IMG/VR virus record: IMGVR_UViG_3300025767_000057
Span: 1-37,661 of that record
DNA: 37,661 nucleotides
Reading direction: 5' to 3' (one strand)
From: a virus
The position numbers were made by a program, and so were the translations under genes. The notes below the pieces were generated by a model, which made no database searches, was not told where the DNA came from, and saw nothing but the letters and a program-made list of their open reading frames with translations. Below are positions 221-31,551 of the stretch, in pieces; position 1 is the stretch's first letter; every line of letters starts with the position of its first letter.

Positions 221-276
221 TTAACAATTTCTTAACATTAAAAGCTCGATTATTCGGGCTTTTTTTATTATCTTTA
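221..276 (+). promoter_or_regulatory. Class A promoter P1
   Basis: TTAACA at 221-226 and 232-237 (11 bp apart), CTCG at 245-248 in the -33 position, exactly 20 bp, TATCTTTA at 269-276, then GTAAAAG starting five bases after the box (281). This is the weakest of the five class A sites at its -33 box, but spacing and flanks match the others. It overlaps the terminator at 241-267 and would drive the small membrane gene at 304. Promoter activity is inferred from the pattern. Confidence 0.55.
241..267 (+). terminator. Intrinsic terminator
   Basis: Nine-pair stem (241-249 with 254-262, one T-G pair), four-base loop TTAT, followed by a run of T. It would end the transcript of the gene finishing at 212. 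The stem lies between the TTAACA boxes and the -7 box of promoter P1, so terminator and promoter are superimposed. Confidence 0.75.
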
Positions 277-303
277 CTTTGTAAAAGAAAAGAGAGATAC
301 ACT

Positions 304-501
304 ATGAAAAATTATCAAGCAATTTTATTATCAATATTTGGATTCGGAATTTCATACGGAATGGTTTATGGTCAAATTCAGAATGTTATACCATTTAACA
401 ATGTATTATCTGAAATGGTAGTATTCATTTTAGGTTTTATGTGTGGAATTGGTGGTTTACTATCAATTAACTACATAAAGTTACTTAAATCCTTAAATTG
501 A
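304..501 (+). CDS. Small membrane protein with two predicted spans, unknown function
   Basis: Not recognised. A 65-residue product with two hydrophobic stretches (about residues 5-24 and 38-58) joined by a short polar loop, with a lysine-containing tail, so probably a two-span inner-membrane protein. It starts 27 bases after the -7 box of promoter P1, preceded by a purine-rich AGAGAGA. It ends just before the TTAATA/TTAACA boxes of promoter P2. Small membrane proteins near phage early promoters often affect host envelope or superinfection, but nothing here shows that. Confidence 0.6.
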   Translation: MKNYQAILLSIFGFGISYGMVYGQIQNVIPFNNVLSEMVVFILGFMCGIGGLLSINYIKLLKSLN

Positions 502-504
502 TTG

Positions 505-570
505 TTAATAACTTTGTTAATAACTTTAACATTTTAAATTTGGTTATTACCAAAATATTTACTATCTTTA
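505..570 (+). promoter_or_regulatory. Class A promoter P2
   Basis: TTAATA at 505 and 517, TTAACA at 526-531, TTTG at 539-542, 20 bp, TATCTTTA at 563-570, and GTAATAA starting at 575. The second-box to -33 distance (13 bp) and the box to GTAATAA distance (5 bp) equal those of P3 and P4. Bases 528-546 are identical to 3060-3078 in P4 (19 bp). It would drive the VWA-domain gene at 581 with a very short leader. Confidence 0.7.
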
Positions 571-580
571 CAAAGTAATA

Positions 581-2752
581 ATGAGAAATAATAATAATAT
601 GAGAGATAACACAAAATACAGTTCGTATTGGTTAAAAGATGACCTATTTGATGATGATGATGATGCGGTTATCAGTTCACCAACTGAAACTAAGCATTCA
701 AATTTACTTGCTCTTGCTTCTTACAAAAGAGCAATTTCAAACTTTGTTAACATCGTAACAGGTGAGAACATCAAAGTAATGTTTGACCAACGTGGTGATA
801 ATTCTTATACTGATGGTAAGACAGTTACCATTTCAGCTAAGATGGATGATAAAGATTTTGACCCTACTGTTGGATTGGCCCTTCACGAAGGTTCTCACAT
901 TAAGTTAACTGATTTTTCATCATTAGATAAAATTAGTAATTACGAATTCCCTCAACCTCTTACTTATGATTACTTATCTCAGTTAGAAGATAAACATCTG
1001 ATGAGTTATGATGGTGTTCGTAATTGGGTTTCAGGCGTTGTTAAAGATTTACTGAATGTGATTGAAGATAGAAGAATTGATTACTATATTTATTCTACTT
1101 CTCCTGGCTACAAAGGTTACTATCACTCTATGTATGATAAGTATTTCAACGCTAAGATTATCGATAAAGGACTTCAATCTTCTGAATATAGAGAAAATGA
1201 TTGGGAATCTTATATGTTCCGTATCATTAATATCACCAATGAAAATCGTGATTTGGATGCTCTTCCATTATTGAGAGAAGTTTACAAAATGATTGATTTA
1301 AGAAACATCAATCGACTTCAGAATACTCAACAAGCGTTTGAGTTGGCTTGTGAGATTTTCAAATTTATTGAAGATTCACTCCCATCACTTCAACAACAAA
1401 ATCAGAATCAAAACCAATCTGGTGATGGTGAATCTGATGGAAATCAATCTGAAGAAGGTTCAGGTAGTGGTTCTGGTGGTGATTCTTCAGAATCTAATGG
1501 TACTGATAATACTGAAGGTTCTGAGAATGATGGTCAATCAAAGCAAGATTCTACCGATGGTGATGATACTAATGGTGATGCTGACGGTGGTGATGTGAAA
1601 TCAGGTCGTTCTTCTTACAATCCAAATGGTGCGGGTGGTGATGGTTCTAATAACCAAATCTCAGATACTAAAGCTCAAAGTGGTGAAGGTTCATTATCAG
1701 ATAGACAAAAGAAACAATTAGAAAATGCTATTGACAAACAAAAGAAATTTCAAAATGGCGATATCAGTAAAAAGAAAGTATCTAAAACTGAAAATGAAAA
1801 GTTAGAAACTTTATCTAAAGCTGGTATTGATGAGAAGTTAGTTGGTAAAGATTATAATTCAAATCACTATTGGAGAAAAGATAGACAAACAGCTGTTGTC
1901 ATAGTTCGTAACTTTACAAAAGCTTTAGCAGATTCAGATACTATTAGTATGGTTTCTTCATATGGTTATTACGCTGAAAGAAATCAAGAAGCTATTAACA
2001 AAGGTTTACAAATCGGTACTATGTTAGGTCGTAAATTGAAACTACGTTCTGAAGAACGTTCACTAACTACACCTCGAATGAAAAATGGTAAAATCTCAGG
2101 CCGTTTGTTGCATGAGTTGGGTATGGGAAATGTAAACATCTTTGACCAGACTGTGGTTAACAAACACAAACCTGCTTTGATTCACATTTCAATTGATGCT
2201 AGTTCTTCAATGGGTGGTTCTAAATGGACTAACTCACAAATTGCGGCAGTTGCAATCGCTAAAGCGGCTTCAATGACTTCAAATTTAGATGTGGTTATTT
2301 CTTACAGAGCCATTCAACATAATCCTGTTCAACCTTTAATGTTGATTGCGTATGATAGTAGAAAGGATAAAATTTCTAAGATTCAACAATTATTTAAATA
2401 TTTGAACGCAACTGGTACTACTCCTGAAGGTTTATGTTTTGAATCTATCTTAGATGAAATTATCAAAACTAATAAAGGTACTGATTCTTACTTCATTAAC
2501 TTCTCTGATGGATGGCCAGGTTTCTCAAATAATGATATGGATTATTCAGGTGAAGGTGCTGTTAACCATACAGCCGCTCAGATTAAGAAAATGAGAATGG
2601 CTGGAGTTAAGGTTTTATCTTACTTCATTGAAGAAGGTAGATATGGTGGAGCTATGGAGAATTTTAAAAGGATGTATGGTAAATCTGCCGAAGCAATTGA
2701 TGTTACTTCTTTGATTCCATTGACTAGAACTTTGAATAAAATGTTTGAATAA
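581..2752 (+). CDS. CobT-like protein: HExxH metallopeptidase-like region plus C-terminal VWA domain
   Basis: 723 residues. The N-terminal region holds H-E-G-S-H at 102-106, an HExxH zinc-site motif, with a downstream E-D-R-R-I-D stretch that could give the third ligand. Residues about 265-375 are a Ser/Gly/Asp/Asn/Gln-rich acidic linker. The C-terminal third is a VWA domain with a MIDAS metal site: D539-x-S541-x-S543, the T-G-T-T-P-E-G segment at 611-617, and D643-G644. This order of N-terminal domain, acidic linker and VWA is that of CobT-like and DUF2201-type partners of MoxR/CobS ATPases, and such an ATPase follows at 3146. The role is probably assembly or remodelling of a target complex by the pair. 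Cobalamin synthesis is unlikely because no CobN-type chelatase is present. An in-frame ATG at 599 is an alternative start because 581 lies almost at the predicted transcription start. Confidence 0.8.
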   Translation: MRNNNNMRDNTKYSSYWLKDDLFDDDDDAVISSPTETKHSNLLALASYKRAISNFVNIVTGENIKVMFDQRGDNSYTDGKTVTISAKMDDKDFDPTVGLALHEGSHIKLTDFSSLDKISNYEFPQPLTYDYLSQLEDKHLMSYDGVRNWVSGVVKDLLNVIEDRRIDYYIYSTSPGYKGYYHSMYDKYFNAKIIDKGLQSSEYRENDWESYMFRIINITNENRDLDALPLLREVYKMIDLRNINRLQNTQQAFELACEIFKFIEDSLPSLQQQNQNQNQSGDGESDGNQSEEGSGSGSGGDSSESNGTDNTEGSENDGQSKQDSTDGDDTNGDADGGDVKSGRSSYNPNGAGGDGSNNQISDTKAQSGEGSLSDRQKKQLENAIDKQKKFQNGDISKKKVSKTENEKLETLSKAGIDEKLVGKDYNSNHYWRKDRQTAVVIVRNFTKALADSDTISMVSSYGYYAERNQEAINKGLQIGTMLGRKLKLRSEERSLTTPRMKNGKISGRLLHELGMGNVNIFDQTVVNKHKPALIHISIDASSSMGGSKWTNSQIAAVAIAKAASMTSNLDVVISYRAIQHNPVQPLMLIAYDSRKDKISKIQQLFKYLNATGTTPEGLCFESILDEIIKTNKGTDSYFINFSDGWPGFSNNDMDYSGEGAVNHTAAQIKKMRMAGVKVLSYFIEEGRYGGAMENFKRMYGKSAEAIDVTSLIPLTRTLNKMFE

Positions 2753-2756
2753 AAAC

Positions 2757-2812
2757 TTAACATTAACTTAACACTTGGGACTTGGATATTCCCCAAATGT
2801 TTCTTATCTTTA
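2757..2812 (+). promoter_or_regulatory. Class A promoter P3
   Basis: TTAACA at 2757-2762 and 2768-2773, CTTG at 2781-2784, 20 bp, TATCTTTA at 2805-2812, and GTAATAA at 2817-2823. It fits the class A layout exactly. It lies between the VWA gene and the 71-residue gene at 2836. Confidence 0.7.
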
Positions 2813-2835
2813 CGGAGTAATAAAAGTTAAGAGAT

Positions 2836-3051
2836 ATGAGAAATTACCCAAGATTGATTAAAGAGTTTTACGATTATGTATTGAGTTTTTACAACAACCA
2901 CGATGGTGTTTATAAGATTGCTACACCAGAACGAATTGTTGAAGCTATCAATGAGTATTTAGAATCAAAACCATTAGGTGAGATTTACTTTGATTCGTTT
3001 GATAGAGAATCAGTAAGAATGATTATTGAACGAGATTATTCAATAATTTAA
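2836..3051 (+). CDS. Small soluble protein, unknown function
   Basis: Not recognised. 71 residues, mixed charge, no membrane segment, rich in aromatic residues in its first third; probably a small helical cytoplasmic protein. It has its own class A promoter (P3) upstream and another (P4) that begins over its stop codon, so it forms a one-gene transcription unit between the VWA gene and its ATPase partner. That position suggests it is expressed with the pair, but a functional link is only a guess. Confidence 0.6.
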   Translation: MRNYPRLIKEFYDYVLSFYNNHDGVYKIATPERIVEAINEYLESKPLGEIYFDSFDRESVRMIIERDYSII

Positions 3052-3102
3052 CATTTTTTAACATTTTAAATTTGGTTAATTCAAATAATAGTTGTACATT
3101 TA
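3048..3102 (+). promoter_or_regulatory. Class A promoter P4
   Basis: TTAACA at 3048-3053 and 3058-3063 (10 bp apart), TTTG at 3071-3074, 20 bp, TACATTTA at 3095-3102, GTAATAA at 3107-3113. Bases 3060-3078 repeat 528-546 exactly. It would drive the AAA+ ATPase at 3146. The first TTAACA box overlaps the stop codon of the preceding gene. Confidence 0.7.
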
Positions 3103-3145
3103 CAGAGTAATAAGAGATAAAAGTTAAACATTTAAATTTAGATTT

Positions 3146-4411
3146 ATGAAATCACAAAGATTTGTTTTTTTGAAAGTTGTTCGAAATGAGAACAAAGAGT
3201 TAATTTTAGTTGACTCAAACGGTGTAGAATTCTTAGTTCCTGAAATCAATGAAAACGGAACTTCACTTTATAAAAGAGCGGTGGCTGCTGCTAACAATCC
3301 TTCTAAGTATTGTTTCAAAGCTAGAGTTAAAGGAACATTATCAGAAGGTTCTGTTGAATTTGGTAGAGTTCCCGTTGATAAGTTTGAAGGTGCTGAACCT
3401 GTTACAAACTTCAACCAACCAAATGGTGGTTTGGAAGTTTTCCAAATGAAATCAACTTTAGTTCAATCTGAACCTGTTCAAGCTCCAAACACTATGGACT
3501 TTATTAACTTCATTCACAATGATTCAAAAGGGTTGAAACCTCAGATGTTATTTATGAGTGAATTGAAATGGAAATATTTGATTCGTAACATTCTTAGAGG
3601 TAAGAATATTATGATGACCGGTCCCGCGGGTTGTGGTAAAACTATGGCCGCTAAAGCAGCGGCTAATTCAATTGATGGTTATCGAATGGAAATCTTTAAC
3701 TTAGGTTCTACTCAAGACCCTCGTGCTACTCTGATTGGTAACACTCAGTTCGATACTAAGAAAGGTACGGTGTTCTCACCATCACCATTCGTTAAAGCAA
3801 TTCAAACACCAAATACCGTAATCGTATTAGATGAGATTACCAGAGCTCACCCTGAAGCTCACAACATTCTTATGAGTGTTTTAGACCAAGGACAACGTTA
3901 CTTACGTTTGGATGAGGCTTCGGATTCACCAATTGTGAAAGTTGCTGAAGGTGTTTCCTTTATCGCTTCCGCTAACATTGGTAATGAATATACCGCAACT
4001 CGTCAACTTGATAGAGCGATTGTTGATAGATTTACTATCATTGAAATGGATACTTTGAGTAAAACTGAAGAAACTGAATTACTTAAAATGATGTATCCAT
4101 CAGTAAATGTTAATTTGATTACTTCAGTTGCTGAGATTACTTCAATGACTCGTTCTGAAGTTAAAAAAGAAACTCCAAACTTAACCAATTCACTTTCAAC
4201 CCGTACTGCGGTTGAGATTGGTTCTCTTCTTTACGATGGTTTCACTTTAGAAGAAGCCGCTGAAATCACCGTTTATCCTTTATTCGATGAGGCGGGTGGT
4301 GCTCAATCTGAAAGAACTTACATCAGACAATTCGTTCAAAAGTTTGTAGGTTCTACTGAAGAAGAAAATCTTTTCAATGTAGAAGATGATGATTTAACTA
4401 ACCCATTCTAA
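3146..4411 (+). CDS. MoxR/CobS-like AAA+ ATPase
   Basis: 421 residues. An N-terminal region of about 130 residues without a recognised domain is followed by an AAA+ module: Walker A G159-P-A-G-C-G-K165-T166, Walker B ending in D229-E230, a sensor-1 Asn near 277 in an A-S-A-N stretch, and an arginine-finger candidate at R295 in V-D-R-F. This is the MoxR/CobS type, whose members act as ring ATPases with a VWA partner. The VWA gene at 581 is the obvious partner. T4-like phages of marine bacteria often carry a gene annotated cobS of this type. Its own class A promoter (P4) lies upstream and a stable hairpin follows the stop codon. The target in the infected cell is unknown. Confidence 0.85.
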   Translation: MKSQRFVFLKVVRNENKELILVDSNGVEFLVPEINENGTSLYKRAVAAANNPSKYCFKARVKGTLSEGSVEFGRVPVDKFEGAEPVTNFNQPNGGLEVFQMKSTLVQSEPVQAPNTMDFINFIHNDSKGLKPQMLFMSELKWKYLIRNILRGKNIMMTGPAGCGKTMAAKAAANSIDGYRMEIFNLGSTQDPRATLIGNTQFDTKKGTVFSPSPFVKAIQTPNTVIVLDEITRAHPEAHNILMSVLDQGQRYLRLDEASDSPIVKVAEGVSFIASANIGNEYTATRQLDRAIVDRFTIIEMDTLSKTEETELLKMMYPSVNVNLITSVAEITSMTRSEVKKETPNLTNSLSTRTAVEIGSLLYDGFTLEEAAEITVYPLFDEAGGAQSERTYIRQFVQKFVGSTEEENLFNVEDDDLTNPF

Positions 4412-4428
4412 TATATGTTTAACTCTCT

Positions 4429-4456
4429 ATGGCTCCCCAAATGGGTGGGGGGTCAT
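4429..4456 (+). terminator. Strong hairpin after the AAA+ ATPase gene
   Basis: Ten-pair stem (4429-4438 with 4447-4456, two G-T pairs, four consecutive C-G pairs) and an eight-base loop. It starts 17 bases after the ATPase stop codon. The sequence after it (TTCTCT) is only partly T-rich, so it may be a weak terminator or a 3'-end stabiliser. Confidence 0.5.
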
Positions 4457-4474
4457 TTCTCTAAAAAATAAAAT

Positions 4475-4744
4475 ATGGCAAGAGTAGATGTTGATATCGA
4501 TTTTGATGATTATTTAAGTGGTTGTACTTCTTCGGAAAAACAAATAATAATAGATTCACTTTGGCAAGATGGTTATGTTCCAAAGAGTTTATTTGAAGAT
4601 GGTTTTGAGATGATTGCTGAAAGTACATCCGAACAATTTCTTAAAGAATACTTGGAAAATATCTGGAAAAATCGTATGTTTATAAACAATGAAGATTTAG
4701 AATCTTTAAAATATTACACAAATAAAGGTGATTATGGAAATTAA
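4475..4744 (+). CDS. Small acidic protein, unknown function
   Basis: Not recognised. 89 residues, acidic, no membrane segment or metal motif. It starts 18 bases after the hairpin that follows the ATPase gene and overlaps the next gene, whose ATG at 4734 lies inside its last codons. It heads a run of six closely packed genes (4475-6156) of small, mostly acidic proteins that look like one transcription unit. Such runs are typical of phage early regions that code for host-directed factors, but no role can be read from the sequence. Confidence 0.6.
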   Translation: MARVDVDIDFDDYLSGCTSSEKQIIIDSLWQDGYVPKSLFEDGFEMIAESTSEQFLKEYLENIWKNRMFINNEDLESLKYYTNKGDYGN

Positions 4745-5021
4745 TAGTAAAGAATTGGTAAATGGGGTAATGGATGCTCTAAACGAAGATGGTGCATTTG
4801 ATAGCCCATTTTTAAGTAAAGGTAAATTTAAATTGATATTATCAAAAAATATATCAAATAGTAAAAATCCCATTGATGAGATGGAAGATATAGTTGATAA
4901 AACTATAAAAGAATGTGTTATGACCGCTGTAGATGATACACTAGAAACACTTTCAGAAGATGGTTTAGTCGAATCGGTGGTAAACGATAACGGTGAAATT
5001 GCATATAGATTAAAACAATAA
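4734..5021 (+). CDS. Small protein, unknown function
   Basis: Not recognised. 95 residues with a run of alternating hydrophobic and acidic residues that suggests an all-helical fold. The ATG at 4734 overlaps the end of the previous gene. An in-frame GTG two codons upstream (4728) is possible but less likely. The next gene follows after four bases, so translation is probably coupled along this run. Confidence 0.6.
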   Translation: MEINSKELVNGVMDALNEDGAFDSPFLSKGKFKLILSKNISNSKNPIDEMEDIVDKTIKECVMTAVDDTLETLSEDGLVESVVNDNGEIAYRLKQ

Positions 5022-5025
5022 TATT

Positions 5026-5430
5026 ATGAGTGAACATGAAGATAATTTGATACCAGAAGAATATTGGAATGAGGTATCTCAAGAAGAGATGGAATCGTTA
5101 CAGTCAGCTGCCGATGAAATGGAACAATATTTATCTCAACCTATGGATGAGTGGAATGAAATGGATGACCAATATTATGACCATCTCAGAGATAGATTTA
5201 AAAAAGGACCAGATGCGATAGGACCTCGTCAATTTAAACAATTTCAAAATGTGTTTCTACCAATTCAAATGATGGTAATTCCTGCAGGTAGACAACATAA
5301 TGGTGAAAAAATGGTTCAATATTTCCATACAATTACAGAAGATATGGAAGGTGGTGAATGTAATGGTTCTTATGAATTAATTACAGAAACCGATTTAGAA
5401 GAAAAGTTTAATATTAAGTATAACAATTAA
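5026..5430 (+). CDS. Acidic protein, unknown function
   Basis: Not recognised. 134 residues, strongly acidic in its first half, with an E-E-Y-W-N-E segment near the N-terminus. A similar E-E-Y-W-D-E occurs near the start of the protein at 7808, which hints at a shared short motif between two small acidic phage proteins. No membrane segment or catalytic motif is visible. Very acidic small phage proteins sometimes mimic DNA, but that is speculation here. Confidence 0.6.
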   Translation: MSEHEDNLIPEEYWNEVSQEEMESLQSAADEMEQYLSQPMDEWNEMDDQYYDHLRDRFKKGPDAIGPRQFKQFQNVFLPIQMMVIPAGRQHNGEKMVQYFHTITEDMEGGECNGSYELITETDLEEKFNIKYNN

Positions 5431-5442
5431 AATCAATTAAAG

Positions 5443-5643
5443 ATGAAGTATTATATTGCAAAAGTGAAAGTGGTAATGACCGATGATAAAGGTCGTCAAA
5501 AGAAAGTATCAGAACAATATTGTGTTCATGCAGTATCAGTAACAGATGCTGAAACAAAGGTACATGAGGAATTCAAAAATGATGGATTAGAGTTTGAAGT
5601 TACATCAGTATTGGAAACCAAAATCATTAAAGTTATTAAGTAA
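5443..5643 (+). CDS. DUF4494-like small protein
   Basis: 66 residues. The pattern K-Y-Y-I-A-K-V-K-V near the start, then K-K-V-S-E-Q-Y, then a V-S-V-T-D-A-E segment resembles DUF4494 as I know it from Bacteroidota and their phages. Function is unknown for the family. The stop codon (5641-5643) shares its last base with the ATG of the next gene. The resemblance is from memory of the family pattern and should be treated as moderate. Confidence 0.55.
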   Translation: MKYYIAKVKVVMTDDKGRQKKVSEQYCVHAVSVTDAETKVHEEFKNDGLEFEVTSVLETKIIKVIK

Positions 5644-5900
5644 TGAATTTGAATTACTCAAAAGACTCTACAGTTGTTATAACTGTATTTGGAAAACATA
5701 AGGTGGGTAGTGTGGTGGATAGAGCGGTTTCCAAAAGGGGAATCGTTCACACCATCGAAACTGAAGAGGGTAAAATTTATGAATCTATTTTTGTAAACGG
5801 AACAGAATCAGTTTATATTAACAGTTCGCTCACAGCGGCATTTACAAAATCTATTGAAGATGGAAATAACGAAACAGAAGTTCAAGAGGATAAAGAATAA
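5643..5900 (+). CDS. Small protein, unknown function
   Basis: Not recognised. 85 residues. The first 55 alternate beta-prone stretches with charged turns (a small beta-rich domain is likely), and the tail is acidic. Its ATG overlaps the previous stop codon (TAATG), a sign of translational coupling. Its last 41 bases overlap the next gene. Confidence 0.55.
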   Translation: MNLNYSKDSTVVITVFGKHKVGSVVDRAVSKRGIVHTIETEEGKIYESIFVNGTESVYINSSLTAAFTKSIEDGNNETEVQEDKE

Positions 5901-6156
5901 GATTCTGAAGAAATACCCTACCGCAGTTACAAAGATGGATAGAAATGGGTTGTATTATGTTTCAGATGGAACTAAACGCTTATGTGAAGAGTATATGATA
6001 CCATCACAAAAAACAGTAGTCGCGGCTTGGCATTGGATTGCTGAAACTATTAGGATTGACCAAAATATTCAAAGAACACATCCTAACAGAATGGATATTG
6101 GTTCTTTTGAAAAAAAGTTTAATCGTATTTCTAATAGGAATAAAGGTAGAAAGTAA
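5860..6156 (+). CDS. Basic small protein, unknown function
   Basis: Not recognised. 98 residues, strongly basic at both ends (many Lys and Arg), with a central W-H-W-I stretch, so possibly a nucleic-acid-binding protein. I chose the ATG at 5860. The reading frame also has a TTG at 5854. The 41-base overlap with the previous gene is long for this genome, so the true start could be further in. It closes the 4475-6156 gene run. Confidence 0.55.
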   Translation: MEITKQKFKRIKNKILKKYPTAVTKMDRNGLYYVSDGTKRLCEEYMIPSQKTVVAAWHWIAETIRIDQNIQRTHPNRMDIGSFEKKFNRISNRNKGRK

Positions 6157-6176
6157 GTTTATATAAGATTTGTTTC

Positions 6177-6185
6177 ATATTTATA
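6177..6185 (+). promoter_or_regulatory. Candidate late-promoter motif ATATTTATA
   Basis: CATATTTATAG in the 56-base gap before the gene at 6213, ending 27 bases before its ATG. It is the first of six copies of the 9-mer found in gaps before genes (others at 7609, 15975, 27239, 29194 and 35661). The role is inferred. Confidence 0.35.
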
Positions 6186-6212
6186 GTAAATAATTAATTT
6201 AAATTTCATGTT

Positions 6213-6497
6213 ATGAAACACAGTAAACCAAAATCTTATGTTAACCAATCATTTGGAGTTAATGCTAAAGATAAAGAACGACTTGATAAATTGGGAAAGA
6301 ACTTTAGTTCAATCGATTTTGAAATTTCGGATTCAATTACAGAATCAAATGTAGGTGAAAAATCAACTGCAATTGGAAAGTTACTTGTTGGGAATCAAAA
6401 AATAGAACTTACTTATTCTGAATGTAATAAAATTATTACCACATTAGCAGATGCTCAATTGATAATAAAACAAAAGCAGAAATTGGGTATTTTCTAA
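6213..6497 (+). CDS. Small soluble protein, unknown function
   Basis: Not recognised. 94 residues; the N-terminal quarter is basic and the rest has a beta-strand then long-helix pattern, ending in a Lys/Gln-rich helix. No membrane span or metal site. It has a candidate late motif upstream and is followed after 12 bases by the gene at 6510, with a clear ribosome binding site between them. Confidence 0.6.
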   Translation: MKHSKPKSYVNQSFGVNAKDKERLDKLGKNFSSIDFEISDSITESNVGEKSTAIGKLLVGNQKIELTYSECNKIITTLADAQLIIKQKQKLGIF

Positions 6498-6509
6498 GAA
6501 GGAGTTAAT

Positions 6510-6935
6510 TTGAATACTTCTGATTTTTTTAAAGAGTTGGGATTGGGAGACCCGGACATGGAGAAAGCTCGTGAATGGGTTTCCTATAACCAATTTAAGA
6601 ATAGTGTTCCTGATATATTAACTTTGGAAGAATACATTGATATGATATATAAGAAAGTTCAAAATGTTGATGCAAGACCGCATCTTTGGTTTTCAGAAAG
6701 ATATATGATATCAAAGTATTTAACAACAAAAGAATCTGCAGAGGATTCATATGTAGATAATGTATTAGAACGTATTAAAAAATTAAGTAGTTCAGTTCCT
6801 AAAGAATCAAATTTCAACCACATCCATTCATTTTTAGATACCTTAGCAGACCACATTTCTACAAAAAGAACTATCTTACCAAAAGAAGTATTGGTTTACT
6901 TAAATAAACTTTACAAAACAAAAGGATTAAAATAA
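6510..6935 (+). CDS. Protein of unknown function, TTG start
   Basis: Not recognised. 141 residues, helical and mixed charge, with an aromatic-rich centre. The start is TTG at 6510: AAGGAG at 6499-6504 sits five bases upstream, a near-ideal Shine-Dalgarno placement, and no ATG lies nearby in frame. This is one of the few genes here with a non-ATG start. The gene ends at 6935, right at the left edge of the foreign-looking segment that follows, so its original downstream neighbour may have been displaced. Confidence 0.6.
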   Translation: MNTSDFFKELGLGDPDMEKAREWVSYNQFKNSVPDILTLEEYIDMIYKKVQNVDARPHLWFSERYMISKYLTTKESAEDSYVDNVLERIKKLSSSVPKESNFNHIHSFLDTLADHISTKRTILPKEVLVYLNKLYKTKGLK

Positions 6936-6968
6936 CGGCAAAGTATAACACAAGTAAAACGAACGGAT

Positions 6969-7142
6969 ATGAAATTTGACTTATTAAATATAGAGTATGA
7001 GCCACAAGGATGGTTTTGGTTAACCATAGCAAACTTTGAATATGGCGACCAAAGCAGAAGCCTGTTACACATTGAAAGAAATGAAGGGATGTGGAAGTTT
7101 CAACTGCTATGGTTAGCAAATAACTGTTGGATAGTTGAGTGA
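6969..7142 (+). CDS. Small ORF enclosed by an 11-bp inverted repeat
   Basis: Not recognised. 57 residues with six tryptophans, an unusual share, and no membrane span long enough to be convincing. It is flanked by GTATAACACAA (6943-6953) and its exact reverse complement TTGTGTTATAC (7149-7159). The arrangement, one short ORF between inverted repeats, is what mobile gene cassettes look like. No ribosome binding site stands out. It may be a real cassette gene or chance coding in a mobile segment. Confidence 0.4.
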   Translation: MKFDLLNIEYEPQGWFWLTIANFEYGDQSRSLLHIERNEGMWKFQLLWLANNCWIVE

Positions 7143-7162
7143 GTGTATTTGTGTTATACATT

Positions 7163-7191
7163 GTTGTAAAATCGTTTCAATGTTTTACAAC
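7163..7191. repeat. Perfect 9-bp inverted repeat
   Basis: GTTGTAAAA at 7163-7171 and TTTTACAAC at 7183-7191 around an 11-base loop. It lies just after the small ORF in the cassette-like segment. No T-run follows, so it is not an obvious terminator. A second imperfect pair follows directly (7192-7200 with 7216-7224). Confidence 0.6.
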
Positions 7192-7273
7192 GTTTCGTGT
7201 ATGAGCAGTAGCCGAACACAAAACTTGATTAGAAGTATAAACTTAAATATTAACAACTGCAATAGTTTAAAAA

Positions 7274-7307
7274 GCCTAACGGCTATTGCTTATACACTTT
7301 GTTAGGC
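7274..7307 (+). other. attC-like recombination site candidate
   Basis: GCCTAAC (7274-7280) fits the integron inverse-core consensus RYYYAAC, and GTTAGGC (7301-7307) fits the core GTTRRRY. They are perfect reverse complements 20 bases apart. A further pair, GCAATAG (7259-7265) with CTATTGC (7283-7289), overlaps it. At 34 bases it is shorter than usual attC sites, and clear inner L boxes are not visible. TGTTAGGCACA (7300-7310) is repeated in reverse complement at 7599-7609, beyond the next ORF. Confidence 0.4.
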
Positions 7308-7318
7308 ACAGTTATTTT

Positions 7319-7597
7319 ATGGCAACATTAGAAGATTTAAGAGCAGAGTTAGAACCATTCAGAAATACTTTAGTGATAGATGATTTTGATACCGTTGTGC
7401 GGTTGGTAGATGTTATTGATGGTGAAGATGATTATTATTGGGTATATGATGGAAGAATTTCTTCCTATGGAAGAAAGGGGATTTATCATTCAACTTGTGT
7501 GGGTGGGTGGATACCATTAAAAGGTTTTGTAGAGCAAGAAAAGTATGAAAGAATGGTTCGTATATGGAACTTAAATAATATCGAGAAGGCAGTATAA
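7319..7597 (+). CDS. Small acidic protein between inverted repeats, unknown function
   Basis: Not recognised. 92 residues from the ATG at 7319, acidic in its first half, with an aromatic D-Y-Y-W-V-Y stretch near residue 40. The reading frame is open to 7286, but that extension runs through the attC-like site, so 7319 is preferred. It is enclosed by TGTTAGGCACA (7300-7310) and its reverse complement (7599-7609), the second pair of flanking inverted repeats in this region. The composition resembles the phage's own small acidic proteins, so it could be a phage gene caught up in the insertion or a cassette gene. Confidence 0.5.
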   Translation: MATLEDLRAELEPFRNTLVIDDFDTVVRLVDVIDGEDDYYWVYDGRISSYGRKGIYHSTCVGGWIPLKGFVEQEKYERMVRIWNLNNIEKAV

Positions 7598-7608
7598 TTG
7601 TGCCTAAC

Positions 7609-7617
7609 ATATTTATA
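7609..7617 (+). promoter_or_regulatory. ATATTTATA motif copy
   Basis: CATATTTATA directly after the reverse-complement repeat at 7599-7609, only six bases before the ATG at 7624. That is too close for a normal leader, so this copy may be inactive or may imply a start further downstream. Confidence 0.25.
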
Positions 7618-7623
7618 TATGAT

Positions 7624-7818
7624 ATGATTATAGATGAAATTACGGATGGTTATTATCAAAGCAAGTTATGGGAAATTATACACCACAATGATGGTGAAGC
7701 CCGCCTTTCTAAACTAAAACATTATGTTTTAAAACATAAATACTTTAAAGAGTTTGGATATGAACCCACATGGTTGGCGTATCGAATTTATATTGAATCT
7801 TTAACAAATGGAGAATAA
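7624..7818 (+). CDS. Small protein, unknown function
   Basis: Not recognised. 64 residues, mixed charge, with several aromatic residues and a His/Lys-rich middle; probably a small soluble protein. ATG at 7624 is preferred over the in-frame GTG at 7600 because the latter lies inside the inverted repeat. The stop codon at 7816-7818 overlaps the start of the next gene. Confidence 0.5.
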   Translation: MIIDEITDGYYQSKLWEIIHHNDGEARLSKLKHYVLKHKYFKEFGYEPTWLAYRIYIESLTNGE

Positions 7819-8191
7819 TATGGTACGTGAAGAATATTGGGATGAAATTGAATATAACTTTTTCAAAGATTTAGATGATGAAGATAAATTATTATATCTT
7901 TATGATTTGATGATTGGTGATTTCAAAGATGAATATTACGGTGAAGATGAAATAGAATTTGATTTCGAAGAAGATGATGATGAAATCAGACATGAAGTAT
8001 TAGCAATCTTTGATAAATCAGGCCATATATCTATTACAGGTGTATCTGAAGAACTACTTAGAAAAGTTGCTAATGATATGGCGATGAATGGGTTAGTTCT
8101 ATCAGATAGAACATTATCTAAATTAGAAGATGGTGAGTATTTACTACAGTATAAAGTAGTTGGTAATGCACCACCAATTTCATTGAACTGA
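7808..8191 (+). CDS. Very acidic protein, unknown function
   Basis: Not recognised. 127 residues with long runs of Asp and Glu in the first 60. It begins with a segment containing E-E-Y-W-D-E, similar to one in the protein at 5026. The second half looks like a small alpha/beta unit. The start at 7808 overlaps the previous gene's end; an ATG four codons on (7820) is an alternative. Extreme acidity could reflect nucleic-acid mimicry or a binding tail, but that is not demonstrable here. Confidence 0.55.
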   Translation: MENNMVREEYWDEIEYNFFKDLDDEDKLLYLYDLMIGDFKDEYYGEDEIEFDFEEDDDEIRHEVLAIFDKSGHISITGVSEELLRKVANDMAMNGLVLSDRTLSKLEDGEYLLQYKVVGNAPPISLN

Positions 8192-8210
8192 CACAATTAC
8201 ATTACTATAC

Positions 8211-8248
8211 TGACAAATTGTCATAAAACATCTAATGGTATAGATGTT
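8211..8248. promoter_or_regulatory. Two adjacent dyad symmetries in the hsp20 leader
   Basis: TGACAA-A-TTGTCA (8211-8223) is a perfect 13-bp palindrome. AACATCTA (8227-8234) and TAGATGTT (8241-8248) form a perfect 8-bp stem with a six-base loop. TGACA also occurs at 8189-8193. They lie 43-80 bases before the hsp20 start. Operator, thermosensor RNA or end-of-transcript hairpin are all possible; no T-run follows. Confidence 0.45.
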
Positions 8249-8290
8249 GAATATTAAGAATTAAAAATTACAAACTAAAAAGGAGTTATT

Positions 8291-8638
8291 ATGTTTACTA
8301 CAAGAAAAGATACATTCGATAGAATGTTTGATGAAACTATGCTGGATATGTTATCAACATTCAAACCTAAAAACGAATCAATGAAAGTTGATGGTGATGA
8401 ATTGATAATGAGTTTTGACGTACCAGGTTTCTCAAAAAAAGATTTTAAAATTATTGTAGAAGATACCACATTGGTAATTGATGGAACTACAGAAGATAGA
8501 ACGTTTTTTAAATCTTACAAAATCCAAAAAAATTGGGATGTAAAAAATACTTCTGCAGAAGTTAAAAATGGAATCATAACTTTAACAATTCCCAAAAAAG
8601 AAATAAAGAAAGACTTAGTAGAAATTTCAGTTAAGTAA
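8291..8638 (+). CDS. Hsp20 / alpha-crystallin small heat-shock protein
   Basis: 115 residues, a typical size for a minimal small heat-shock protein. The alpha-crystallin domain covers about residues 35-113. It shows the opening F-D-V-P-G-F, a strand with L-V-I-D-G, and the closing G-I-I-T-L-T-I-P-K, matching the family's G-x-L pattern loosely (I replaces L). These ATP-independent holdases keep partly unfolded proteins soluble and are common in T4-like phages. A clear AAAGGAG lies upstream of the ATG. The stop codon overlaps the next gene's ATG. The dyads upstream may regulate it. Confidence 0.9.
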   Translation: MFTTRKDTFDRMFDETMLDMLSTFKPKNESMKVDGDELIMSFDVPGFSKKDFKIIVEDTTLVIDGTTEDRTFFKSYKIQKNWDVKNTSAEVKNGIITLTIPKKEIKKDLVEISVK

Positions 8639-8868
8639 TGTTTTGTAAAGAAGTTATATCAGTATCGGATAAACTGTGGATTGTACAACGTAAAGTAAGA
8701 ATATCGGATAACCCAATTGTAGAGACGTGGCGTGAACATTTACGCTCTGATAAGGTTTTTAAGAGAGAACCATTCTACTACTTTTGTGAAGCTATTACTG
8801 ATGTAGAACCAATCGAGGATGAAACGCAAATGGAATTAACAGAAGAAGTAGAATCTACAAAGGATTGA
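8638..8868 (+). CDS. Small protein, unknown function
   Basis: Not recognised. 76 residues; the first 55 are mixed charge with several Trp, Tyr and Phe residues, and the tail is acidic. The start overlaps the hsp20 stop codon (TAATG), so the two are probably translated together. The transcript ends at the terminator 25 bases after the stop codon. Confidence 0.55.
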   Translation: MFCKEVISVSDKLWIVQRKVRISDNPIVETWREHLRSDKVFKREPFYYFCEAITDVEPIEDETQMELTEEVESTKD

Positions 8869-8872
8869 AAAC

Positions 8873-8929
8873 TTAACAATTATTTAACATAAGGGGGCTT
8901 GTATAAGTCCCCTTTTTTTATTATCTTTA
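8873..8929 (+). promoter_or_regulatory. Class A promoter P5
   Basis: TTAACA at 8873-8878 and 8884-8889, CTTG at 8898-8901, 20 bp, TATCTTTA at 8922-8929, GTAATAA at 8934-8940. The second box is 14 bp rather than 13 bp from the -33 box. The -33 box lies in the stem and loop of the terminator at 8893-8919. It would drive the zinc-ribbon gene at 8954 and possibly the UV endonuclease gene. Confidence 0.65.
8893..8919 (+). terminator. Intrinsic terminator after the hsp20 operon
   Basis: GGGGGCTT (8893-8900), loop GTAT, AAGTCCCC (8905-8912) with one G-T pair, then seven T. A textbook rho-independent terminator. Its loop region doubles as the -33 box of promoter P5. Confidence 0.85.
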
Positions 8930-8953
8930 TTATGTAATAAAAAGATTAAAGTT

Positions 8954-9118
8954 ATGAGAGAATTAGATAATTGGTTTGGTGGAAATCCAATAGAACAGAT
9001 AGATAAGATAATAAGTGAAATGTCCGCTCATGCAGATAAAGCTGGTAAGGTTGTGGATTGTGGTGTTTGTAAGAATACCAAAATTCAAAATGGACATACG
9101 TGTAATGTATGTAAGTAA
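8954..9118 (+). CDS. Mini zinc-ribbon protein
   Basis: 54 residues. The C-terminal third carries C-G-V-C and C-N-V-C separated by ten residues, a four-cysteine zinc-ribbon pattern; the N-terminal part is acidic and helical. The ATG at 8954 lies 25 bases after the -7 box of promoter P5 and the stop codon is 29 bases before the UV endonuclease gene. Small zinc ribbons often bind nucleic acid or RNA polymerase, so a regulatory role is possible, but nothing specific can be shown. Confidence 0.65.
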   Translation: MRELDNWFGGNPIEQIDKIISEMSAHADKAGKVVDCGVCKNTKIQNGHTCNVCK

Positions 9119-11244: not shown

Positions 11245-11276
11245 TTTGGATTATTAAAATCTTTTTCGTATATTTG
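11245..11276 (+). promoter_or_regulatory. Class B promoter upstream of clpP
   Basis: TTTG at 11245-11248, 20 bp, TATATTTG at 11269-11276: an exact match to the Bacteroidota sigma consensus. It has no TTAACA boxes. The 16-mer at 11262-11277 is identical to that at 31537-31552 before the primase gene, and both -33 boxes read TTTGGAT. Confidence 0.8.
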
Positions 11277-15960: not shown

Positions 15961-15971
15961 AACTAAACATT

Positions 15972-15988
15972 TTAATATTTATATAAAA
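15972..15988 (+). promoter_or_regulatory. Candidate late promoter
   Basis: TTAATATTTATATAAAA, identical over 17 bases to 27236-27252 and over the first 13 to 29191-29203. It lies 10 bases before the ATG at 15999, so the leader would be very short. Confidence 0.5.
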
Positions 15989-15998
15989 ACATAATATT

Positions 15999-26025: not shown

Positions 26026-27225
26026 ATGGCAAAACGAAAAGAATATAGAGAAGAATTTAAAGTAAATAGAGATGGTGATAGTACCCGTAAGGAGATACCA
26101 ACACCACCACCTACTAAAAATTCTGAAGATTTTATAGAAGATACACCAATACAATCGCCTATGGAAATGGGTGATAATATTGTATTGGATATAAACCAAG
26201 AAGTTTTAAGAAGAATCGAATTGGAATCCAAAAAAGAATTACAACGAAATCCAATTGATGAAATAAAAACAATTGATGAGAGTATTGAAGAAATAATAAA
26301 GCCAATACAAAAGGTAGTAGATACTCCATTAATTTTAGATGGTAATAAAGAAATATCACCAGTTGATAGAGTACCATCTGATATATTGAGTAGGGTGGTA
26401 AGTAACCCAAAAGCCAACATAATTGAAAAACCTCAAGTAATAGATGTTACAGTATTATCTGAAATAGAAAAAAGAAGATTAGCATCTGAAGAACAAAAAA
26501 GAAGAATGATGGGTGATGAGCGTAGTGCTGATATTCAACAATCATTTGAAGAAGAACAAGAGCGTAAACAATTATTTGATGAAGAAATTGAAGTGATGAA
26601 ATTTGAATTTGAACAATATTTAAAAGATAAATATCCTGAGTTTGATAAGGATAATATTGAAAATAGAGATGTTGTTACAAATCCGCCATCGCCTGAAGAA
26701 TTGCAAGCAAAAGAAGAAGAAAAACAAAGATTGAGAGAAGAACGTAGACGTAATAAACAACAACAAAAAACTAAGAAACGAAACTTACAGAAGCAAAAAC
26801 TTCAAAGATTGGAAAGAGAGAAAGAACGTAAAGCTCAAGAAAATGAATTTGAAATAAACAAATTAAGACGAGATGAAATCAACACATTCTTAGAAGAGGA
26901 TATAATCTTAGAGCAAAAAGAAAAACTTGCAAGAAATCCTGAAATTGAAGGTTTAAACGAAGTTCAAATTAAACTTAAAGAAATCGAACAATTTGAGAAA
27001 AGATTGGGTAGACCAATTATACCACATAGAGATATAGTGGAAAGTGAAGAATCAGATTTAGACCCAAAATCTTATACAAATTCAAACGATGATTTAATAA
27101 TCATACCTGATAACATTGATGTTGTAGGTGATTTGGATAAGTTAAATAAATTAAGAGAGTTGAGACGAGAATTAGAGTCTGAAACAGATGATGGTAAAGA
27201 TTATGTTTCTAATAGAGGTAGATAA
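26026..27225 (+). CDS. Highly charged coiled-coil protein, unknown function
   Basis: 399 residues, dominated by Glu, Lys, Arg, Gln and Asp with very few aromatics. Residues about 135-325 form a nearly continuous helix with basic patches (Arg/Lys runs near 235-275), flanked by Pro/Asp-rich tails. It starts two bases after the giant tail protein and, like that protein's own end, is coiled. A scaffold or fibre-shaft role is possible; no family could be named. Confidence 0.6.
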   Translation: MAKRKEYREEFKVNRDGDSTRKEIPTPPPTKNSEDFIEDTPIQSPMEMGDNIVLDINQEVLRRIELESKKELQRNPIDEIKTIDESIEEIIKPIQKVVDTPLILDGNKEISPVDRVPSDILSRVVSNPKANIIEKPQVIDVTVLSEIEKRRLASEEQKRRMMGDERSADIQQSFEEEQERKQLFDEEIEVMKFEFEQYLKDKYPEFDKDNIENRDVVTNPPSPEELQAKEEEKQRLREERRRNKQQQKTKKRNLQKQKLQRLEREKERKAQENEFEINKLRRDEINTFLEEDIILEQKEKLARNPEIEGLNEVQIKLKEIEQFEKRLGRPIIPHRDIVESEESDLDPKSYTNSNDDLIIIPDNIDVVGDLDKLNKLRELRRELESETDDGKDYVSNRGR

Positions 27226-27235
27226 TTCAAAAATA

Positions 27236-27252
27236 TTAATATTTATATAAAA
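27236..27252 (+). promoter_or_regulatory. Candidate late promoter
   Basis: TTAATATTTATATAAAA, identical to 15972-15988. It lies 78 bases before the ATG at 27331. A weaker variant, TTACATATTTATTAC, follows at 27287-27301, closer to the start codon. The gap 27226-27330 otherwise holds no gene. Confidence 0.5.
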
Positions 27253-27330
27253 TGAAAAATTTGTAAATTGGTTTAAAAATATTTATTTACATATTTATTA
27301 CTATAATAGGAAAATCAAAAGGTAAAATAT

Positions 27331-29103: not shown

Positions 29104-29139
29104 GATACCCATCTCCTATAATAGAATTGTAGGACCGGC

Positions 29140-29178
29140 TCGAAAGAGTTTCGACCCCATAGTAATATGGGGTTTTTT
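29140..29178 (+). terminator. Double-hairpin intrinsic terminator
   Basis: Hairpin one: TCGAAA (29140-29145), GAG, TTTCGA (29149-29154). Hairpin two: CCCCAT (29155-29160), six-base loop, ATGGGG (29167-29172), then TTTTTT (29173-29178). It ends the block from 27331 and lies just before the late-motif copy at 29191. Confidence 0.85.
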
Positions 29179-29190
29179 ATTTTAAATAAT

Positions 29191-29205
29191 TTAATATTTA
29201 TATTA
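29191..29205 (+). promoter_or_regulatory. Candidate late promoter
   Basis: TTAATATTTATATTA, sharing its first 13 bases with 15972 and 27236. It lies between a strong terminator and the gene at 29224, a place where a promoter is needed, which makes it the best supported of the late-motif copies. Confidence 0.55.
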
Positions 29206-29223
29206 GAATAATAGGATTATTGA

Positions 29224-31105: not shown

Positions 31106-31528
31106 ATGGCAAAAGGAAATTGGTCTCACATTCAAAAACAAAAAGGCCATAAAAGTGGTCTTGAAACTAAGATAGATGAACAACTGAAATCAATAGGAAT
31201 TGATGGTGAATATGAACAACACGAAATCAAATACACAATTCCAGAAACACATCATACATATAAACCTGATTTTAAATTACCAAATGGAATTTATATAGAA
31301 TCTAAGGGTTGGTTCTTACCAGAAGATAGAAAGAAACATCTTTTAATTAAAGAGCAAAATTCTGATATTGATTTAAGGTTTGTATTACAATCACCAAACG
31401 GTAAGATATATAAAGGTTCAAAAACTACATATGCACAATGGTGCGAGAAGAATGGGTTCAAATGGGCTAAGAAAGAAATACCCCAAGCTTGGATTGATGA
31501 AAAAGAAATTGTAAAATTCTTTGGATAG
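31106..31528 (+). CDS. T7-type endonuclease I (Holliday junction resolvase)
   Basis: 140 residues; T7 gp3 has 149. The four catalytic residues fall at the very same positions as in T7: E20 (in S-G-L-E), D55 (in P-D-F), E65 and K67 (in E-S-K-G). The flanking segments D-R-K-K-H-L-L-I-K-E-Q and K-I-Y-K-G-S also match T7. The enzyme cuts branched DNA: resolving junctions before packaging in T4 is done by the unrelated gp49. It starts 13 bases after a structural gene, and the class B promoter of the primase overlaps its end. Confidence 0.93.
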   Translation: MAKGNWSHIQKQKGHKSGLETKIDEQLKSIGIDGEYEQHEIKYTIPETHHTYKPDFKLPNGIYIESKGWFLPEDRKKHLLIKEQNSDIDLRFVLQSPNGKIYKGSKTTYAQWCEKNGFKWAKKEIPQAWIDEKEIVKFFG

Positions 31529-31551
31529 TTCATTTATTTTTCGTATATTTG
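31520..31551 (+). promoter_or_regulatory. Class B promoter upstream of primase and Mre11-Rad50 genes
   Basis: TTTG at 31520-31523, 20 bp, TATATTTG at 31544-31551, an exact Bacteroidota-type promoter. Bases 31537-31552 repeat 11262-11277 exactly. The ATG at 31559 lies only seven bases after the -7 box, so the mRNA would be nearly leaderless. The -33 box overlaps the end of the endonuclease I gene. Confidence 0.8.

Follow-up and report, generated by a model that had tools for sequence, protein, structure and literature searches.

A promoter-like layout recurs in five gaps of the window

Which element occupies five short gaps in the genome of an uncultured phage, and which regulator would read it? 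The question is raised by IMG/VR virus record IMGVR_UViG_3300025767_000057, analysed here over its whole length (37,661 bp, 31% GC; hereafter the window), for which a first-pass annotation had proposed a five-copy phage promoter family made of two TTAACA boxes, a core of the Bacteroidota sigma type and a downstream GTAATAA. We refer to this layout as class A and to its sites in the window as P1 to P5. The window encodes a T4-type baseplate, a MoxR/CobS-like AAA ATPase (3146-4411) and a large protein (581-2752) that we read as VWA-type without a Pfam match. The closest cultured matches of the baseplate protein are in Mel-JY01 (52%) and Flavobacterium phage immuto (45%), and these matches together with the promoter type point to a host among the Bacteroidota. 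The phages in question are uncultured T4-like viruses that presumably infect this phylum.

All five sites lie on the plus strand exactly where they had been placed, and their layout was confirmed. P1 (221-287; score of 29.3 with the position weight matrix (PWM) described below) has TTAACA at 221-226 and 232-237, CTCG at 245-248 in the -33 position, the -7 box TATCTTTA at 269-276 and GTAAAAG at 281-287, and precedes an open reading frame (ORF) at 304-501. P2 (505-581; 25.0) has TTAATA at 505 and 517, TTAACA at 526-531, TTTG at 539-542, TATCTTTA at 563-570 and GTAATAA at 575-581, and is followed by the VWA-type gene. In P3 (2757-2823; 54.3), upstream of an ORF at 2836-3051, the boxes are TTAACA (2757-2762, 2768-2773), CTTG (2781-2784), TATCTTTA (2805-2812) and GTAATAA (2817-2823). 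P4 (3048-3113; 33.6) combines TTAACA (3048-3053, 3058-3063), TTTG (3071-3074), TACATTTA (3095-3102) and GTAATAA (3107-3113) in front of the ATPase gene, and P5 (8873-8940; 51.5), which sits between a gene ending at 8868 and an ORF at 8954-9118, combines TTAACA (8873-8878, 8884-8889), CTTG (8898-8901), TATCTTTA (8922-8929) and GTAATAA (8934-8940).

With the first -7 base as reference (269, 563, 2805, 3095 and 8922 for P1 to P5), the spacing is close to invariant. The -33 box starts 24 bp upstream at all five sites, leaving 20 bp between the boxes. At four sites the second TTAACA begins 37 bp upstream, at P5 38 bp, and GTAATAA (or its P1 version) starts 12 bp downstream at all five, near the expected transcription start as had been proposed. 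From the first TTAACA box to the second the step is 11 bp in P1, P3 and P5, against 10 bp in P4; the upstream part of P2 is irregular, its TTAATA, TTAATA and TTAACA following each other at 12- and 9-bp steps. Extra repeats (TTAATAACTTTGTTAATAACTT) are seen immediately 5' of the boxes in P2 (505-531), and sites of several relatives have TTAATAACTTGTTGATAACTT.

The core is of the type read by the Bacteroidota primary sigma factor, sigma-ABfr (consensus -33 TTTG and -7 TAnnTTTG; PMC7366714), which bears out the assignment made in the first-pass annotation: class A shares the -33 TTTG box, lying within the expected 19-21 bp upstream of -7 and represented by CTCG in P1, the AT-rich spacer and a TAnnTTT at the expected place. 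It differs from sigma-ABfr promoters in the eighth -7 base, which is A at 94% of sites rather than G, and in the added conserved TTAACA pair and GTAATAA, held at near-fixed spacing. A PWM trained on 66 sites of other contigs, with the window left out, matched exactly P1 to P5, and no further full-layout match was found on either strand of the window. The -7/GTAATAA part matches once within a gene, at 26330, without TTAACA boxes.

Class A is conserved in position among related phages

We scanned 80 relatives that had been picked by MoxR protein homology, independently of the motif. The PWM gave 74 matches between genes (135 kb) and 12 within coding DNA (1,325 kb), an approximately 60-fold higher intergenic density, and shuffled sequences gave none. 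The equal counts in coding DNA against which the proposed family had been staked were therefore not observed. At 82 of the 86 matches the gene that follows is encoded on the same strand, with short leaders. On the basis of the PWM specificity in the window, the intergenic excess and the empty shuffles we reject chance or coding-sequence noise, and class A is best regarded as a real, positionally conserved class of putative phage promoters.

Conservation follows individual genes. The promoter upstream of the MoxR gene was found in most of 76 relatives (63-87% identity), where the footprint keeps the TTAACA boxes, TTTGG and GTAATAA and the 19-20 bp spacer has diverged; the -7 box varies (TATCTTTA, TACATTTA, TACTTTAG and also TATCTTTG) while GTAATAA holds at +12. 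The last four bases of TTTGG are conserved at 82-94% over 74 sites of relatives, and the 11-bp TTAACA spacing runs throughout. A cluster of 15 class A sites, P2 counted among them, precedes orthologues of the VWA gene, and orthologous sites are also present upstream of the small ORF behind P1.

All ten long relatives (records of 66-187 kb) carry class A, with one to six sites each that are mostly grouped in one region, and the reversed-pattern control gave none. Because so few sites are present per record, class A forms a small set and is probably not the sole promoter type of the phage. Class A was not found in 50 kb each of the distant cultured relatives immuto and Mel-JY01. The strict class A pattern, SIGNIFICANCE, occurs in 46 stretches of viral contigs and had no match in 84,980 genomes; the half formed by TATCTTTA plus GTAATAA is restricted to phages.

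Predicted terminators are nested within class A spacers

A feature overlooked in the first-pass annotation is a hairpin within the spacer of some sites. In P1 (240-266, plus strand) it consists of AAAAGCTCGATTATTCGGGCTTTT and a T-run that ends right before the -7 box (-12.2 kcal/mol, z -6.5), and in P5 (8891-8920, plus strand) of AAGGGGGCTTGTATAAGTCCCCTT and a T-run (-14.6 kcal/mol, z -6.9), with compensatory changes in relatives. The stem comprises 8-11 bp, the -33 box lies within the 5' arm and loop, and the T-run reaches the -7 box. The P1 and P5 spacers thus combine the GC-rich hairpin, T-run and conserved pairing expected of intrinsic terminators, and such a nested terminator is predicted at 22 of the 72 class A sites in the relatives and the window. 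Among 16 sites in the same register, 96.5% of pair cells pair and five of the nine stem pairs show a compensatory change, versus 0.7 in shuffles; sliding the partner abolishes pairing. Host promoters with a TTAACA pair rarely have a nested terminator (2 of 107, p about 3e-8). At least two other sequence families of fused terminator-promoter exist in other phage contigs (CCCAGATTTTCGGATCTGGGTTTTTTT; CCCACTTGCAAGGGTGGG), and shuffled spacers yielded no such fused elements. A scan of the window against Rfam gave no match, and a literature search on overlapping terminators and promoters returned nothing relevant by title. The second fused family, represented by CCCAGATTTTCGGATCTGGGTTTTTTT, was noticed in eight stretches of other phage contigs, in which TTAACA pairs and a nested terminator of this kind stand before TATATTTACAT.

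The TTAACA pair is a host element resembling a Pho box

The TTAACA half of the layout has a different distribution. TTAACA-N5-TTAACA followed by TTTG and TAnnTTTG was found in 105 stretches of the genome collection, nearly all from Bacteroidota, in the same register as in the phages and without conservation of GTAATAA. Phage specificity consequently holds for the TATCTTTA/GTAATAA half and is not supported for the whole layout, the TTAACA pair being a host element across Bacteroidota. A near-identical TTAACA/TAnnTTTG match in two assemblies of Streptococcus sanguinis may reflect contamination, transfer or chance.

Among 62 genes behind host promoters with the pair, the commonest Pfam families were PHO4 (four) and the Na/Pi cotransporter (three), with one DUF47/PhoU_div. 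In 396 Flavobacteriales genomes the pair before TAnnTTTG was far commoner than the reversed-pattern control, and in the subset for which distances were computed, those from the second box to -7 clustered at 25-27 and 37 bp, with a further group at 14 bp. A Pfam scan of Flavobacteriales genes behind the pair assigned 12 of 30 to phosphate families (seven PhoU_div, four Na/Pi and one Porin_O_P), and the pair was present in 5 of 15 Na/Pi promoters versus none of 30 gyrB promoters (p=0.002); the gene samples include orthologues, so that such enrichment p-values overstate independence. PHO4 proved weak as a uniform positive set, with the pair directly upstream in 3 of 30, because in Flavobacteriaceae it precedes DUF47, the first gene of the DUF47-PiT operon. 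A fatty-acid desaturase gene lies behind a pair promoter in two Flavobacteriales (Pfam match in one) and may be connected with lipid remodelling when phosphate is scarce.

Fourfold TTAAC arrays at an 11-bp period were found nine times versus once in the control, upstream of PstS, two porin O/P, five TonB-plug genes and one DapF, and like arrays adjoin Bacteroidales pst genes. In eight of the nine arrays the last repeat is found 15 bp ahead of the -7 box. The two TTAACA boxes of the phage sites (37 and 48 bp) coincide with the two distal places of such an array, in the same 11-bp register, and the phage -33 box occupies the place of its two proximal repeats. Five arrays stand before outer-membrane genes of the CarboxypepD_reg/TonB-plug type, which are candidate phosphate-regulated receptors.

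The pair resembles an upstream protein-binding element with repeats one helical turn apart, as had been suggested. It is like Pho boxes, the sites of PhoB/PhoP, in its TTAAYA-type direct repeats at an 11-bp period (10 bp in P4, and P2 being irregular), which within the same phylum are concentrated upstream of genes for phosphate functions (PstS, Na/Pi, DUF47-PiT and porin O/P). The cyanobacterial Pho box, PyTTAAPyPy(T/A) (PMC10976474), has the same core as the TTAAC repeats. Class A differs from Pho boxes in having two distal repeats only (37/48 bp), an intact -33 box and phage genes without phosphate function downstream. Purified PhoB of B. fragilis binds its own pst promoter in vitro (PMC3547664), although the passages of that paper that we consulted do not give the box sequence, and limited literature searches turned up no paper defining a Bacteroidota Pho box or TTAACA element.

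Alternative readings of the TTAACA pair

We tentatively favour the reading that the pair is a Bacteroidota Pho box, a putative direct-repeat site of a PhoB/OmpR-family regulator, and consider it quite possibly, though by no means assuredly, correct. Several observations weigh against it. Directly upstream, the pair is present at just 2 of the 11 PstS genes from Flavobacteriales and at 3 of 30 PHO4 genes, and its position in host phosphate promoters is often 15/26 or 26/37 bp, not 37/48. Genes without a phosphate link have it upstream too: 16S rRNA in three contigs of rumen Bacteroidales, several MarR genes, MetK and others. Numerous promoters of many unrelated Bacteroidota phages contain it as well, and a general strength element would account for this better than a phosphate switch. 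In its sequence, period, register and neighbouring genes the pair thus resembles a Pho box, yet it is not exclusive to phosphate genes or confined to phosphate-responsive promoters; we claim the type and not proven membership because of its occurrence before rRNA, MarR and MetK genes and in phages. Among the rumen contigs the 16S pairs are tandem in L137 and L225 (L179 being the third), and the other Bacteroidota rRNA promoters that we inspected differ, most in the phylum being without the pair. Three phage contigs (L306, L326 and L402) are rich in TTAACA-pair promoters, with about 12 in 10 kb of L306.

A general UP-like element of strong Bacteroidota promoters, bound by the carboxy-terminal domain of the polymerase alpha subunit (alpha-CTD) or a constitutive host factor, has appreciable plausibility as well; class A with its GTAATAA would then simply be strong promoters akin to the early promoters of T4 and T5. 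In its favour, the boxes sit some 44-60 bp ahead of the presumed start, in the region of UP subsites, and the pair is also present upstream of 16S rRNA in some Bacteroidales, of housekeeping genes (MetK, for example) and in numerous promoters that belong to unrelated phages. In T4 early promoters, too, conservation extends past the sigma boxes (PMC2988021), but these have A/T-rich UP elements and a TGn-extended -10 and neither a TTAACA repeat nor GTAATAA, whereas class A has Bacteroidota sigma boxes. An rRNA-type UP element was first rejected on the rRNA operons of 22 Bacteroidota genomes with a 16S match, which showed A-tracts and no TTAACA pair (upstream DNA being short or cut in several), and was reopened by the three rRNA promoters carrying the pair. 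Counting against a general element are these A-tracts in rRNA promoters across the phylum, the conserved C and strict 11-bp repeat, which are unlike A/T-tract UP elements, the pst-type host repeats reaching to 15 bp before -7, where alpha-CTD is not expected, and the absence of the pair from gyrB promoters. A phage-encoded activator that binds the repeats and retains the -33 box, in the manner of MotA, would make class A a phage-timed middle class; the small number and regional grouping of sites and the phage-only TATCTTTA and GTAATAA half would suit it, but the TTAACA part stands in the same register in host chromosomes and unrelated phages and no candidate activator was identified, making this reading improbable. 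Least credible by far is an intergenic device acting mainly at the RNA level, as a terminator or processing site with an incidental promoter match: the strong hairpins with T-run and compensatory changes speak for it, but the roughly 70% of sites without a comparably strong hairpin still keep both boxes, -33, -7 and GTAATAA, and the same-strand genes with short leaders point to a promoter.

A model for class A and its fused terminator

In the favoured model, class A would be read through -33 TTTG and -7 TAnnTTTA by the RNA polymerase of the host carrying the primary sigma factor of Bacteroidota. If the pair is a Pho box, a host PhoB/OmpR-type regulator would occupy it, some 40-60 bp ahead of the start, and help to recruit the polymerase. 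The selected phage genes served, namely those for the MoxR ATPase, the VWA protein and small ORFs, would then be coupled to the host phosphate response. GTAATAA may be the initial transcribed sequence and could tune promoter escape or the mRNA start. Judged by its position, the nested hairpin would halt transcription arriving from the operon upstream a few bases short of the -7 box, and a single 70-bp element may in this way close one transcription unit and open the next.

It is conceivable, though on balance rather unlikely, that Bacteroidota phages have wired core non-phosphate genes to host PhoB via a uniform hybrid promoter, repeatedly fused with a spacer terminator, such that output tracks host phosphate status. 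A precedent comes from Synechococcus, whose PhoB binds promoters of a T4-like cyanophage (PMC10976474): like class A, the promoters of P-SSM2 pstS and of S-PM2d genes place a host-type Pho element before core genes of T4-like aquatic phages (PMC10976474), but class A belongs to another host phylum, is far more uniform, has a fixed -33/-7/start-box layout and contains nested terminators. Class A is of a partly known kind. Its uniform hybrid layout, phage-only start box and fused terminator-promoter are new, as is the proposal that the TTAACA repeats of Bacteroidota are Pho boxes. If true, the model supplies a proposed Pho box for Bacteroidota and ties phage expression to the nutrient state of the host in a way that can be tested, extending the cyanophage idea to another major phylum, and the terminator inside a promoter would be a compact natural element in which one transcript is ended and another begun.

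Other promoter-like motifs in the window

A second motif, (T)AATATTTATA, occurs in gaps of the structural-gene region (15961-15998, 27226-27330 and 29104-29223), with ATATTTATA at 6157-6212. The motif is similar to a T4 late promoter in reverse complement (TATAAATA) and may represent the late class. Two host-like promoters of the form TTGGAT...TTTTTCGTATATTTG, without TTAACA boxes, are located at 11246-11276 and 31521-31551.

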